Part shown: piece by piece, positions 23,260 through 29,538 of the stretch | Position numbering within the stretch: position 1 is the stretch's first letter | Layout of the letters: every line of letters begins with the position of its first letter | Made by a program: the position numbers and the translations under genes | From: Halomarina salina | Lineage (GTDB): Archaea > Halobacteriota > Halobacteria > Halobacteriales > Haloarculaceae | Direction: 5' to 3' | Length of the DNA: 64,000 nucleotides | Assembly (NCBI RefSeq): GCF_023074835.1 | Contig: NZ_JALLGW010000001.1 | Coordinates: 1,116,001 to 1,180,000 of the forward strand | Notes under the pieces: model-generated | What the model was told of the DNA's origin: nothing | Database searches by the model: none | What the model saw: the letters and a program-made list of their open reading frames with translations, nothing else

Positions 23260-24627
23260 ATGGACGCTATCTCGTTCGGTACGGACGGCTGGCGCGCGAC
23301 CCTCGACACCTTCACCGAGGACCGCGTCCGCATCGTGGCGCAGGCCGTCGCCGACCACCTCACCGCGGCCGAGGCGGGCGAGACGGTCGCCGTCGGCTAC
23401 GACGCCCGCGAGCACTCTCGTGGGTTCGCGGACGCCGTGAGCGAGACGCTCGCCGACAACGGGTTCGACGTGCTGCTCTCCGAACGCGACTGCCCGACGC
23501 CGGTCCTCGCGTGGACCGTCCGCGACCGCGGCCTCGCGGGCGGCGTGATGATAACGGCGAGCCACAACCCGCCGGAGTACAACGGCATCAAGTTCCTCCC
23601 CGGCGACGGCGCACCGGCCACGCCCGAGGTGACCGACGACGTGGAGTCACGACTCGCCGAACCGCGCGAAGCAGACGAACGTGGCGGCGTCAGCGAGGAC
23701 ACGTTCACGACCCGGTACGGCCAGCACGCCCTGAACTTCTCGGGGGCCGACCTCGACGGTCTCACCGTCGCCTACGACGCGATGCACGGCAGCGGTCGGG
23801 GAGTGACCGACAACCTCCTCGACGCGGCGGGCGCGAGCGTCGAGGCGCTCCGGGCGGACCTCGACCCCGAGTTCGGCGGCGGGTCGCCCGAACCGAGCGC
23901 GGAGAAACTCGGTGACCTCGTCGAGACGGTGACCGCGGGCGAGGCGGACCTCGGGTTCGCCAACGACGGGGACGCCGACCGGATGGCCGTCGTCACGCCC
24001 GACCGAGGCTTCCTCGACCCGAACCTGCTGTTCGCGGTGCTGTACGACTACCTCCTCGAATCCGAGACCGGTCCCGCCGTCCGGACCGTCTCGACGACCG
24101 CGCTCATCGACCGCATCGCCGAGTCGCACGGCGAGGAGGCCGTCGAGGTACCGGTCGGGTTCAAGTGGGTCGCGCAGGGGATGGCCGACCACGACGCCCT
24201 CTGTGGCGGCGAGGAGTCCGGCGGGTTCGGCATCACCGAGCACCTGCGGAACAAGGACGGCGTCTGTCTCGCCCTCGTCGTCGCGCAGGCCCACGCCGAG
24301 CGACCGCTCGACGAACGCGCCGACGACATCGAACTGGAGTTCGGCGAGATACACCAGGGCCGCGTCAGCGTCGACTGCCCGAACGACCGGAAGGCGGGCG
24401 TGCTCGACTCGCTGGAGGGCGACCTGCCCGACACCATCGCCGGGAAGGGCGTCGCCGAGGTCGGCACCAAGGACGGGTTCAAGATCTTCCTCGACGACGG
24501 GACCTGGCTCCTGATCCGCCCGAGCGGGACCGAACCGAAGCTCCGCGTCTACGCGGAGGCGACCGACGACGACCGCGTCGACGAACTGCTCGCCGCGGGC
24601 CGGGAACTGGTCGAACCGCGCGTCTGA
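23260..24627 (+). CDS. pgm: Phosphoglucomutase/phosphomannomutase
   Basis: 455 residues of the phosphohexomutase family: start FGTDGWRATLD, active-site TASHNPPEYNGIKF, metal loop NDGDADRMAV, sugar loop GGEESGGFG and phosphate loop IRPSGTEPKLRVYAE. The GGEESG loop fits glucose/mannose phosphates better than glucosamine. It probably supplies glucose-1-P or mannose-1-P for glycans. ACCG-TTTTT-CGGT after the stop (24667-24679) may help terminate. Confidence 0.92.
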   Translation: MDAISFGTDGWRATLDTFTEDRVRIVAQAVADHLTAAEAGETVAVGYDAREHSRGFADAVSETLADNGFDVLLSERDCPTPVLAWTVRDRGLAGGVMITASHNPPEYNGIKFLPGDGAPATPEVTDDVESRLAEPREADERGGVSEDTFTTRYGQHALNFSGADLDGLTVAYDAMHGSGRGVTDNLLDAAGASVEALRADLDPEFGGGSPEPSAEKLGDLVETVTAGEADLGFANDGDADRMAVVTPDRGFLDPNLLFAVLYDYLLESETGPAVRTVSTTALIDRIAESHGEEAVEVPVGFKWVAQGMADHDALCGGEESGGFGITEHLRNKDGVCLALVVAQAHAERPLDERADDIELEFGEIHQGRVSVDCPNDRKAGVLDSLEGDLPDTIAGKGVAEVGTKDGFKIFLDDGTWLLIRPSGTEPKLRVYAEATDDDRVDELLAAGRELVEPRV

Positions 24628-24865: not shown

Positions 24866-25342
24866 TCAGCGCCCGACGCGCAACACGCCCCGGCGCCGTC
24901 CGTCGGTCAGCGGGTCGACGTCGAACCCCAGCGACTCGTAGAACGGCGCAACCTCCGCCCGGAACTCCGCCGTGAGGCGGTCACAGTCCACTCGCTCGAC
25001 GGCCGCCTCCACGAGCGCCCGTCCGATTCCGCCCTCGCGACGCCGCCGAGTCACGGCTATCGCCTCGACGTGGCGCGTATCGGGGCGGACCTCCTCGGGA
25101 CGCGGCGCGATACCCTCGCGCTCGGGCGTGTCGAGGACGAGGACGCCGACGACCCTGGCCGTCGCGTCGTCGGGAGAGCCCGCAAGCCCGACGGTCGCGA
25201 CCAGCACCGCCGCTCGCTCGATGCGCTCCCGAACTGTCCCGGCATCCGTGTCGAGCAGTGACCCGTCGAGGACGCGCATCGCGGCGACGTGGTCGTCGGG
25301 CCGGGCGAAGCGAACCCGAACGTCGTCGCTCGCGGCGCTCAT
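24866..25342 (-). CDS. GNAT-family N-acetyltransferase
   Basis: 158 residues. The acetyl-CoA region reads HVEAIAVTRRRREGGIGRALVEAA, followed by LTAEFRAEVAPFYESLGF typical of GNAT enzymes. Substrate unknown. The start overlaps the stop of the ubiquitin-like SAMP2 gene (ATGA), so the two are co-translated and probably act together. Confidence 0.9.
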   Translation of the reverse strand: MSAASDDVRVRFARPDDHVAAMRVLDGSLLDTDAGTVRERIERAAVLVATVGLAGSPDDATARVVGVLVLDTPEREGIAPRPEEVRPDTRHVEAIAVTRRRREGGIGRALVEAAVERVDCDRLTAEFRAEVAPFYESLGFDVDPLTDGRRRGVLRVGR

Positions 25343-25536
25343 CCGCCCTGGACGAGTCGCAACACTCGCACCTCGCTGGCCTCGACCGGCGCGTCCTCGG
25401 GGACGGGGCGGCCGTCGACCAGCACCGTCGCCTCGTGCGGGTTGAGGTCGACGGCGTCGATGAGGTCGCCGTACGTCGGGTCGGGGAGGTCCACCTCGTG
25501 GGCCTCCCTGCCGAAGACGTGGACGGTGACGTGCAT
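25339..25536 (-). CDS. samp2: Ubiquitin-like small archaeal modifier protein SAMP2
   Basis: 65 residues, beta-grasp fold: MHVTVHVFGREAHEVDL, DLNPHEATVLVDGRPVPED and the C-terminal VLRLVQGG. The di-Gly end is needed for adenylation by an E1-like UbaA enzyme. SAMP2 of Haloferax is attached to lysines of target proteins and also carries sulfur for tRNA thiolation. The stop overlaps the acetyltransferase start, an intriguing pairing of two protein-modifying functions. Confidence 0.9.
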   Translation of the reverse strand: MHVTVHVFGREAHEVDLPDPTYGDLIDAVDLNPHEATVLVDGRPVPEDAPVEASEVRVLRLVQGG

Positions 25537-25626
25537 GGGTGCACTCCGAAAAGCAGCGGTTTCAGGCTGTCGCGTTCGGTCGGAGTCGGTTCGAGTCGGA
25601 GTCCCGAGGTCGGTGACGGAGCGGAC

Positions 25627-26658
25627 TCAGACCGTGGGCCGACCCGTGTCGTCGTCGACGACCGGCGGTTCGCTGGCGCGTTCGTCCGAGCGACCGCGGT
25701 ACGCGCGGTAGACCACGAGCGCGAGTGCGCCGAGGCCGAGCAACAGGACGAGGAAGTCCACGACGCCACCGAGGACGGGGACGTACCCCACCGCGAAGAC
25801 GACGAGGAACCCGACGAGGAGGCCCGCCCAGCGGTTGCGCACGTCGGCGAAGCCGAGCAGCCAGTTGCCGAGTGCGAGGCGGCCGTAGACGGTCGCCACC
25901 CACGCCACGACGGCGAACAGGAGTGCGCCGACGATGGTGATGGGGATGCCGATGATGGTGACCGCGAACAGCACCAGTACGAGGGGGATGCCGACGAGCG
26001 TCAGCAGGCCGGTCCCACCGGAGCGGAACGGTTCGGCGAGCGCCGTCGCCGAGACGCGGTCGGCCGTGCGCGGGAACACCAGCAGCAGCACCGCACCGAG
26101 CAGCAGCGAGGCGAGCAGCCCGTAGAACGCGAAGACGGGCGCGAGCGGCCCGAAGTCGACGGGGCCGACGCCGCCGTCGGTGGCGGTGACGGTGCCCGCG
26201 ACGACGGCCCCGTCCGCGCGGACGAGTTCGCCGTCGTAGCTCAGGTCGCCGCCGACGACCGCCGTATCGAGCAACCGGACGGTGTCGCCGCCGACGTTCG
26301 CGTCGCCGCGCACCGTCCCGGCGATGACGACGTCTCCCGCGCCGGCGTTCAGGGAGCCGTCGACGACGGCACCCTCGGCGAGTTCGACGGTTCCGGCCCC
26401 CACGTTGACGTCACCGTTGACCGTCCCCTCGATGCGGACCGTGCCTGCAGCACCTTCGACGTCACCGTTGATTGTCCCACGGATGACCACGGACCCGGCG
26501 AACACCTGCAGGTCGTCGTTCACGACCTCGTTCTCACCGACGACGACGCTACCGCCGCTCCGGGTCTCCGCCGCCGCGAGGCCGGGCATCCCGCCGAGGA
26601 CGACCACGGCCACGAGCAGTACGACCAGGACGCTCCTGATGGCTCTCCGTCCAATCAT
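25627..26658 (-). CDS. Exported bactofilin-like (polymer-forming) membrane protein
   Basis: 343 residues. Signal or anchor helix (about 10-28, ending GLAAAE), then a right-handed beta-helix of short repeats (VVIRGTINGDVEGAAGTV, VNGDVNVGAGTVEL, GGDTVRLLDT; about 33-150) as in bactofilins, then four to five hydrophobic helices (about 160-315) and an acidic tail. With the beta-helix outside and helices in the membrane, it may form extracellular or periplasm-like scaffolds. The ATG precedes the basic start of the signal. Confidence 0.82.
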   Translation of the reverse strand: MIGRRAIRSVLVVLLVAVVVLGGMPGLAAAETRSGGSVVVGENEVVNDDLQVFAGSVVIRGTINGDVEGAAGTVRIEGTVNGDVNVGAGTVELAEGAVVDGSLNAGAGDVVIAGTVRGDANVGGDTVRLLDTAVVGGDLSYDGELVRADGAVVAGTVTATDGGVGPVDFGPLAPVFAFYGLLASLLLGAVLLLVFPRTADRVSATALAEPFRSGGTGLLTLVGIPLVLVLFAVTIIGIPITIVGALLFAVVAWVATVYGRLALGNWLLGFADVRNRWAGLLVGFLVVFAVGYVPVLGGVVDFLVLLLGLGALALVVYRAYRGRSDERASEPPVVDDDTGRPTV

Positions 26659-28008: not shown

Positions 28009-28848
28009 ATGAACAGATTCGACGGGAAGACGGCAGTCGTGACCGGCGCGGGGTCGGGGATCGGGCGGGCGTCCGCGCTCCGTTTCGCCGAGGAGGGTGC
28101 GAACGTCGTCGTCGCCGACGTCGCCGAGGAGAGCGGCCGCGAGACGGTCGAACTGGTCGAGGAGGTCGGGGGTGACGCGACGTTCGTGACGGTGGACGTC
28201 TCGGACCTCTCGTCGGTCGAGCGGATGGTCGAGGTCGCAGTCGAGACGTACGGGGGCCTCGACCTCGCGCACAACAACGCGGGCATCCTCACCGACTTCG
28301 TCGAGGTGAGCGACATCACGGAGGCGGACTGGGACCGGTTACTCGACGTCAACCTGAAGGGCGTCTGGGCGTGCATGAAGGCCGAACTCCCCGTCATGAA
28401 CGAGCAGGGGAGCGGCGCTATCGTCAACACCGCTTCCGAGGCGGGGCTGGTCGGGATGGGCGGCCTCGGCAGTTACTCGGCCAGCAAACACGGCGTCGTC
28501 GGCCTGACGAAGACGGCCGCACTGGAGAACGCCAGTCGGGGGGTCCGCGTCAACGCCATCGCGCCCGGCCCGACGAAGACGAACATCCAGTCCGGACTGG
28601 GTGGTGGGCCGGGCGACGCCTCGTCGATAGCGCTTCTGGACCGCCTCAGGACCGCGGTTCGACTCCTCCGAATCGCGGTTCGCACGCTCCGGGCGGACTT
28701 CGACACCTCCGCGATGCGGGACGTGCCGATGGACCGCATCGCCGACCCCGAGGAGATGGCGGGCGCGGTCGCGTTCCTCTGTTCGGACGACGCCTCCTAC
28801 GTCACGGGGCACACGATACCCGTCGACGGCGGGCAGGCGGCCGACTGA
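28009..28848 (+). CDS. Short-chain dehydrogenase/reductase
   Basis: 279 residues: TGAGSGIGRA cofactor loop, NNAG, catalytic Ser in NTASEAGLVG and YSASKHG (Tyr/Lys). D in VVVADVAEE suggests NAD preference. An unusual basic insert (LLDRLRTAVRLLRIAVRTLRADFD, about 211-234) lies in the substrate-lid region. The C-terminus GHTIPVDGGQ is typical. Substrate unknown. Confidence 0.92.
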   Translation: MNRFDGKTAVVTGAGSGIGRASALRFAEEGANVVVADVAEESGRETVELVEEVGGDATFVTVDVSDLSSVERMVEVAVETYGGLDLAHNNAGILTDFVEVSDITEADWDRLLDVNLKGVWACMKAELPVMNEQGSGAIVNTASEAGLVGMGGLGSYSASKHGVVGLTKTAALENASRGVRVNAIAPGPTKTNIQSGLGGGPGDASSIALLDRLRTAVRLLRIAVRTLRADFDTSAMRDVPMDRIADPEEMAGAVAFLCSDDASYVTGHTIPVDGGQAAD

Positions 28849-28919
28849 GTGACGGGGCGGTCTCGTTCCTGCTGTTCGGCCCGCGTCGAGCCGACGGCTG
28901 CGTAACTCCTTTACTCTGC

Positions 28920-28935
28920 GTACACGTACACGTAC
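28920..28935. promoter_or_regulatory. GTAC triplet repeat upstream of vapB, possible operator
   Basis: GTAC occurs three times at 6-base intervals (28920, 28926, 28932), a self-complementary run directly between TTTACT and the antitoxin ATG. Toxin-antitoxin complexes usually bind such palindromes to repress their own operon. Confidence 0.35.
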
Positions 28936-28937
28936 CC

Positions 28938-29186
28938 ATGTCGTCGAAGAACATCTCGCTTCGCGAGGACGCCTACGAGCGACTCGCGGAGCAGAAACGC
29001 GAGGGTGAGAGCTTCAGCGACGTCGTCCTCCGGCTGACCGCAGACGACCCCGGTGACTTCTCGAACCTCATCGGTGCGGACGTAACCCCCGTTCTCGAAC
29101 CGGAGGAGGTTCCAAGCGGCAGGACAGAAGCAGACGAGCGCCGTGAACGTCGACTACGCGAGCGCATCGAGAGCCACCGTGACTGA
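28938..29186 (+). CDS. vapB: VapB-type antitoxin
   Basis: 82 residues. Start SSKNISLREDAYERLAEQKREGESFSDVVLRL (in pieces) is a ribbon-helix-helix-like or DUF217-type DNA-binding region; the charged C-terminal half (RTEADERRERRLRERIES) would wrap the toxin. It overlaps vapC by 8 bases. Confidence 0.85.
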   Translation: MSSKNISLREDAYERLAEQKREGESFSDVVLRLTADDPGDFSNLIGADVTPVLEPEEVPSGRTEADERRERRLRERIESHRD

Positions 29187-29538
29187 GTACCTCCTCGACA
29201 CGAGCGTTCTCATCGACCTCGTCTACGAGGACGGGGAAGCGATTCGCGTCCACGACGACATCGCAGGCGACGCCGCGACGACCACCGCAAGCGCCTACGA
29301 ACTGATGAAGTTCTTCGAAGAGACCCCCGGCCTGCTCGCTCGGAAGACCGTGTTCGATCTCTCTCCCGAGGATGCGGCCGAAGCGGGGCGGCTCTACCGG
29401 GAACTACACGGCCGGGGGGCGCTCCTCGGTGAGGTCGATACGCTCATCGCTGGGACTGCACGCTCCCGAAACCTCACGCTCGTCACTCGCGACGACGACT
29501 TCGAGCGCGTGGCCGATCTTGACCTGCACCTGTTCTAG
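29179..29538 (+). CDS. vapC: VapC-type PIN-domain ribonuclease toxin
   Basis: 119 residues from GTG 29179, which overlaps the antitoxin stop; a GTG at 29143 would add 12 residues. PIN acidic residues: D in YLLDTSVLID, E in SAYELMKF, D in GEVDTLIAG and D in TRDDDFERV. Likely cuts RNA when released from VapB. Confidence 0.9.
   Translation: MTEYLLDTSVLIDLVYEDGEAIRVHDDIAGDAATTTASAYELMKFFEETPGLLARKTVFDLSPEDAAEAGRLYRELHGRGALLGEVDTLIAGTARSRNLTLVTRDDDFERVADLDLHLF

Follow-up and report, generated by a model that had tools for sequence, protein, structure and literature searches.

The ubiquitin-like modifier SAMP2 and a GNAT acetyltransferase: a conserved and sometimes fused gene pair of haloarchaea

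Two overlapping genes of Halomarina salina, one encoding the ubiquitin-like modifier SAMP2 and the other a GNAT acetyltransferase, raise the question of whether ubiquitin-like modification and acetylation are connected in haloarchaea. They lie within the window, i.e. the whole stretch of 64,000 nucleotides that was analysed (contig NZ_JALLGW010000001.1, positions 1,116,001 to 1,180,000), in whose numbering all coordinates are given. The SAMP2 gene (25339..25536; 65 aa) and the GNAT gene (24866..25342; 158 aa, haloarchaeal family) are both encoded on the minus strand. The GNAT start codon (ATG, 25342-25340) shares bases with the SAMP2 stop codon (TGA, 25341-25339), and this ATGA overlap (25339..25342, minus strand) makes translational coupling likely. 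The original prediction of an overlapping SAMP2/GNAT pair thus proved exact in its coordinates and correct in both gene identities. The two genes look like a unit of their own, because a convergent phosphohexomutase (PGM) gene (23260-24627) lies downstream of GNAT and a bactofilin-domain gene (25627-26658), on the same minus strand, is located 90 nt upstream of SAMP2; the intervening gap (25537..25626, minus strand) may carry a promoter of the pair. A relative of the bactofilin-domain gene is found near SAMP2 in 36 of the 114 loci introduced below. Elsewhere in the window (28371-29538, plus strand), judged by eye, an ORF at 29143-29538 resembles a PIN-domain ribonuclease and the frame before it has an antitoxin-like end, so that a VapBC-type pair is possible there.

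The modifier was assigned using family models. It scored 106.2 bits against the NCBIfam SAMP2 equivalog model NF041919 (cut-off 70) and 98.2 bits against Pfam PF21965 (cut-off 27), and its only PDB matches were the solved SAMP2 chains 2l32 and 4hrs (approximately 75 bits), which we take to be structures of the Haloferax volcanii protein (HVO_0202). The family search also returned matches in the Haloferax volcanii control genome. The window protein ends with LRLVQGG directly before the stop codon, i.e. with the C-terminal diglycine, and it resembles its Haloferax volcanii counterpart in family model, length and Gly-Gly end. In Haloferax volcanii, SAMP2 is covalently attached to target lysines in an E1-dependent manner (PMC5587910). 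However, whereas the Haloferax volcanii protein carries Lys58 and Lys64 (PMC4048286), the window SAMP2 contains no lysine at all and hence lacks both chain-forming residues. These poly-SAMP2 lysines are a property of the Haloferax volcanii protein rather than a requirement for membership in the family. In this respect, the window SAMP2 is a natural counterpart of the lysine-free Haloferax volcanii variant that was built in the laboratory as a chain test (PMC4048286).

The acetyltransferase exceeded the cut-offs of three Pfam models: PF13508 (31.8 bits; cut-off 27), PF13673 (29.1; 23.6) and PF00583 (27.7; 20.7). Its residues 102-107 form an RxxGxG sequence, a version of R/QxxGxG/A, which we take to be the motif that binds the pyrophosphate of acetyl-CoA in GNATs; R102, G105 and G107 are invariant in an alignment of 60 sequences, and Tyr135 is a further residue of note. 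An AlphaFold2 model (mean pLDDT 89.1) contains a complete GNAT fold, and 956 of 999 PDB chains aligned to it using VIA-align reached Z 8 or more. The best structural matches were archaeal Ard1/NatA protein acetyltransferases (5c88_A: Z 15.8, rmsd 2.4, 136 aligned residues), which are alike in fold, although the identity to 5c88_A is only about 24%, and ArgA and an uncharacterised Bacillus GNAT score equally well, within Z 1. A ranking of this kind, obtained with a predicted model, cannot exclude any GNAT subfamily. With the RimI model (NCBIfam TIGR01575), the window GNAT scored 18.9 bits, far under the cut-off of 86.4. An insertion at approximately residues 71-90, before the acetyl-CoA-binding strand, is common to the window GNAT and an ortholog of the same genus (L059); the remaining sequences of the alignment in question lack it or differ there. 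The GNATs are poor in lysine (mean content 0.70%; 53 of 99 have none), but the idea that this reflects self-avoidance was dropped, as neighbouring genes are lower still (LARB 0.46%, bactofilin-domain protein 0.11%).

The bare association of the two genes has been known since 2010, when a row in Table 1 of Makarova and Koonin (PMC2948915) joined arCOG00535 with arCOG04721, GNAT N-acetyltransferase, for Halobacteria. This is very probably the same pairing as that in the window. In the accessible text of that paper it occupies this single row; section 3.2 does not discuss it, and neither a SAMP2-GNAT fusion nor a haloarchaeal peroxiredoxin partner is mentioned. In the openly licensed literature, we found no experimental follow-up of this GNAT and no report of SAMP2-GNAT fusions; an apparent match to HVO_0201 was false, being a KEGG pathway code.

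The conservation of the pair was examined in two partly overlapping sets of genomes, using a profile built on the window GNAT to find its relatives. In the first set (116 genomes, including that of the window), SAMP2 was found in 114, and approximately 5 kb on each side of it was inspected for 113 loci, contigs permitting, with the window as the 114th; some loci end early at contig ends, where neighbours may be hidden. GNAT was present in 99 of these 114 loci, spanning 13 of 17 GTDB families, and always on the same strand, either downstream of SAMP2 or fused to it. In 78 of these 99, two of which are fused, its start is no more than 150 nt from the stop of the SAMP2 ORF; the spacing is -4 in 15 and -1 in 12, single gap values being approximate, as GNAT starts were chosen by a script and two scans differed on the same Haloferax loci. 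The second set comprised 145 genomes of the class. Both genes occur in 142; GNAT follows SAMP2 in the same orientation at a distance of no more than 5 kb in 133 of these (no more than 150 nt in 98); in the remaining nine, GNAT is 13-19 kb downstream (three genomes), 79 kb upstream (one) or on another strand or contig (five). Linkage within 5 kb also holds for 84 of the 92 genomes that are new in this set and carry both genes. Members of the GNAT family were detected in 143 of the 145 class genomes; of 203 genomes sampled from the rest of the phylum, 185 of which entered as a count and were not itemised, none had a match. It is essentially a single-copy family: at E 1e-12 there is one match per matching class genome, except for G084 with a second match of 49.9 bits. 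The pairing is therefore real, old and haloarchaeal. A lack of conservation was one half of the condition set for refuting the original prediction, and on this half the prediction held.

A third, named set consisted of the best 80 of 138 loci ranked by similarity to a fusion, and is thus biased and gives no rate; it comprised 53 adjacent, 19 gapped and 5 fused pairs, two loci without GNAT and one without SAMP2. This set took in Haloferax gibbonsii, Haloferax prahovense, Haloferax sulfurifontis and others, and left out Haloferax volcanii. MAGs of approximately 1 Mb titled Marine Group IV (L226, L271) or Halobacteriales (L225, L227) also keep the pair, with a gap of 39 nt or, in L227, as a fusion, and no Prok-JAB protease was found in these four incomplete genomes.

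Among the 15 first-set genomes without GNAT near SAMP2, GNAT was unlinked in G089, on another contig in G018, 6.6 kb downstream in G020 and a fragment in G033, while no GNAT ortholog was found in the other 11, some of which are incomplete. The near-complete genomes G013 and G078 contain SAMP2 and have no ortholog of the window GNAT, nor was one found in any genome sampled from families f3, f9 and f15, which indicates that SAMP2 works without GNAT. Members of SAMP2 ending with VMRTxSGG (L131, L132, L138, L139 and L142) occur in GTDB families f9 and f11, and no GNAT ortholog was found there.

What, then, might the acetyltransferase act on? It was originally suggested that it may control SAMP2 itself. 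As the window SAMP2 has no lysine, acetylation of SAMP2 lysines is excluded in this organism, where lysine-linked SAMP2 chains are likewise impossible, and the GNAT substrate, judged from the translated gene, is not a SAMP2 lysine. The targets left are therefore other proteins (UbaA and the conjugation targets) or the alpha-amine of SAMP2, N-terminal acetylation of which is possible. Nor is SAMP2 lysine acetylation favoured as a conserved function: across the 114 loci, GNAT accompanies 17 of the 22 SAMP2s that lack lysine and 82 of the 92 that contain it (Fisher p 0.16). Where the Haloferax protein has Lys58, just 13 of the 114 SAMP2s have a lysine and 58 an arginine, so that, as far as these alignments indicate, Lys58 chains cannot be general among haloarchaea.

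In five genomes, which belong to four genera and three GTDB families and include the named isolates Haloplanus ruber R35 and Halorubrum sp. 48-1-W, a single ORF encodes both SAMP2 and GNAT. These are Haloplanus ruber R35 (G161) and a second genome of the same genus (G202), whose linkers measure 24 and 18 nt, respectively, Halorubrum sp. 48-1-W (G184), a Halobacteriales MAG from CSSed (G080) and an ALOHA MAG (G098). Another fusion is present in the uncultured archaeon A07HR67. Since G080, G098 and G184 each have sisters within their genus whose two genes are separate, we infer, from these sisters rather than from a tree, that fusion arose at least four times. SAMP2 is the N-terminal part of the fusions, its Gly-Gly is invariant, internal and intact across the five aligned sequences, and Pfam finds both domains in the two that were scanned (G080 and G098). 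None of the five genomes has a second SAMP2 copy.

In four of the six junctions checked (Haloplanus ruber, G202, the CSSed MAG and A07HR67), the stretch from Gly-Gly to the GNAT domain contains no ATG, GTG or TTG. In-frame GTG codons do occur inside the last 15 codons of SAMP2 in Haloplanus ruber and G202, and the Halorubrum and ALOHA MAG fusions keep in-frame start codons in the linker; in these four, GNAT could thus still be produced as a protein of its own. The ALOHA MAG has a sense codon where the SAMP2 stop of its relatives sits, with the GTG of GNAT kept, and a sequencing error could still account for this loss of the stop.

If the fused protein is to yield SAMP2, it has to be cut. HvJAMM1 cleaves isopeptide linkages of ubiquitin and ubiquitin-like proteins, including SAMP2 conjugates (PMC5587910). 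A Prok-JAB (JAMM) protein is encoded in four of the five fused genomes, and none was found in G098 and three of its relatives, all of which are incomplete genomes. The Haloplanus fusion, modelled using AlphaFold2 (mean pLDDT 92.8, pTM 0.68), has two confident domains, and the only stretch under pLDDT 50, residues 67-70, is located at Gly-Gly, which fits cleavage after this site and is no proof of it. Of the 114 SAMP2s, 92 have no tail after Gly-Gly, 4 have a domain-sized extension and 18 have short tails of 1-17 residues, and the latter look like precursors that would need trimming. In eukaryotes, ubiquitin-ribosomal-protein precursors are cut by deubiquitinases. They are similar to the fusions described here in having the modifier at the N-terminus and Gly-Gly at the junction; however, the modifier here is joined to an acetyltransferase or to a peroxiredoxin-like protein, the cleavage is predicted, and the window pair itself is unfused.

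The peroxiredoxin-like protein appears to be an optional third partner. In 16 of the 114 loci, its gene is found downstream of SAMP2 and in the same orientation, a count from which the weak match in L080 (30 bits, opposite strand) was left out. In two of the 16 (G107 and G084), the domain, AhpC/TSA by Pfam, follows the SAMP2 Gly-Gly in one fused ORF, and in two others (G070 and G086) the gene follows SAMP2 with no GNAT nearby. Among 36 further loci, most of them selected because they had a gap or a fusion and thus giving no rate, 19 have a peroxiredoxin-like gene, four of them fused. The SAMP2-peroxiredoxin fusions, which have GNAT downstream, were recorded in L037:4443-5195:- and L041:4341-5195:-, where the fused domain is AhpC/TSA by Pfam, and in L181, L182, L184 and L187, while in many other genomes a free-standing peroxiredoxin-like gene is located between SAMP2 and GNAT. 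A Prok-JAB protein was found in all six genomes with a SAMP2-peroxiredoxin fusion. A redox partner makes sense because, according to PMC5587910, hypochlorite and mild oxidants raise SAMP2 conjugates and a samp2 deletion is oxidant-sensitive.

The explanation that we prefer, while giving it slightly less than an even chance, is that SAMP2 and GNAT constitute an ancient haloarchaeal functional module, in which GNAT, using acetyl-CoA, serves the SAMP2 pathway as its dedicated protein acetyltransferase. The common strand, the stop/start overlap, the conserved order, the near single-copy GNAT family and several one-ORF fusions support the module as such, whereas it is presumed that GNAT acts on a SAMP2-pathway protein. 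Co-translation would make both proteins together; GNAT would then acetylate an amine (of a lysine or of an N-terminus) on a protein of this pathway (the E1 UbaA, for instance, another pathway component or a SAMP2 target), and the acetyl and SAMP2 marks would be set in relation to each other. In the fused genomes, a JAMM protease would probably first free SAMP2 by cutting after Gly-Gly.

The original interpretation is thus supported in part. It is plausible that sampylation and lysine acetylation are linked, because acetylation in Haloferax volcanii also occurs at 24 of the 78 sampylation sites mapped there (PMC10294847), but the available text of that source assigns the shared sites to no one enzyme, and they are not tied to this one. 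Published studies of haloarchaeal acetyltransferases deal with Pat1, Pat2 and Elp3 (PMC12323606, PMC12607858, PMC6267482), known or predicted lysine acetyltransferases of Haloferax volcanii that, like the window GNAT, belong to the GNAT superfamily, but are other genes, set apart by their identifiers (HVO_1756, HVO_1821 and HVO_2888, respectively). A parallel case is that of a GNAT co-encoded with a UspA protein, which it was suggested to acetylate (PMC3403918).

A point against a protein substrate is that the GNAT fold also serves small molecules. It is accordingly conceivable, though in our opinion unlikely, that the substrate of this GNAT is a small molecule or an RNA, for example one belonging to sulfur metabolism or tRNA modification, where SAMP2 is a sulfur carrier, and that the enzyme shares an operon and its regulation with SAMP2 while leaving conjugation untouched. 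Thiolation of the wobble uridine by NcsA has been linked to the SAMP2/UbaA system (PMC4048286), the peroxiredoxin-like partner could fit sulfur or redox chemistry, and the nearest PDB sequence matches of the window GNAT include YjaB, SACOL1063 and PA2271, which are named as uncharacterised or generic acetyltransferases. However, repeated fusion to the modifier is hard to square with co-regulation alone.

Alternatively, GNAT might acetylate the alpha-amine of SAMP2, which is the only amine of a lysine-free SAMP2; such a cap would block head-to-tail chains or N-terminal sampylation. We consider this quite unlikely. The best structural matches, Ard1 and NatA, are N-terminal acetyltransferases, the position of SAMP2 at the front of the fusions leaves its N-terminus free, and most of the lysine-free SAMP2s keep GNAT nearby. 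On the other hand, the structural match is tied with other GNATs, and the second residues of SAMP2, at script-chosen starts, vary widely (R in 29, H in 17, E in 14 and D in 12 of the 114, and others), with no common acetylation signature recognised.

Could gene order alone explain the pair? It might hitchhike in a conserved neighbourhood, the fusions being rare read-through accidents, as the lost stop of the ALOHA MAG with its retained GTG would suggest. PGM and RfcS are also found near SAMP2, in 75 and 76 of the 114 loci, respectively, and the syntenic neighbourhood explains part of the SAMP2-GNAT linkage. However, GNAT is kept in 25 of 39 loci without PGM, in 30 of 38 without RfcS and in 8 of 16 without both; the pair therefore outlasts its surroundings. 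GNAT without PGM was observed in 25 loci and PGM without GNAT in one (McNemar p 8e-7, not corrected for phylogeny), and the corresponding numbers for RfcS are 30 and 7. This retention, together with the linkage in most class genomes, weakens pure synteny as an explanation. Strand and order are, moreover, constant within the linked loci, two genomes of one genus (G161 and G202) are both fused, and, of the four junctions that lack a start codon between the domains, two also lack one in the 15 codons before Gly-Gly. For these reasons we regard gene order as an improbable sole cause.

It is very improbable that GNAT is an E2/E3-like factor presenting an amine to activated SAMP2 in place of the conjugating enzymes that, to our knowledge, archaea seem to lack: GNATs do catalyse amine attack on a thioester, and the SAMP2-specific linkage and the fusions would agree with such a role, but the invariant motif residues point to ordinary acyl-CoA chemistry and some SAMP2-bearing genomes have no GNAT. 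Besides, MsrA together with UbaA supports the conjugation of SAMP2 in vitro, albeit with cell lysate present (PMC5587910).

Our preferred reading, the module with a dedicated protein acetyltransferase, can be extended to a broader one, which we put forward as a speculation with a low probability. The haloarchaeal SAMP2 module would consist of the modifier, an optional peroxiredoxin-like protein and a GNAT serving conjugation, either as a gating acetyltransferase or as the missing transferase, and in several lineages the only SAMP2 would be born as a fusion with GNAT or with the peroxiredoxin-like protein and matured by proteolysis after Gly-Gly, as an archaeal counterpart of ubiquitin precursors.

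Sampylation is an archaeal counterpart of ubiquitin conjugation, and the E1 UbaA and, under mild oxidants, MsrA are known to steer it. The fusions and the peroxiredoxin-like partner turn the pair from an operon observation into a testable module. A lineage-bound GNAT that stands beside SAMP2, or is welded to it, is a concrete gene for deletion and offers a direct test of whether acetylation and sampylation are wired together, while the fusions predict that SAMP2 is matured by proteolysis in living isolates such as Haloplanus ruber.
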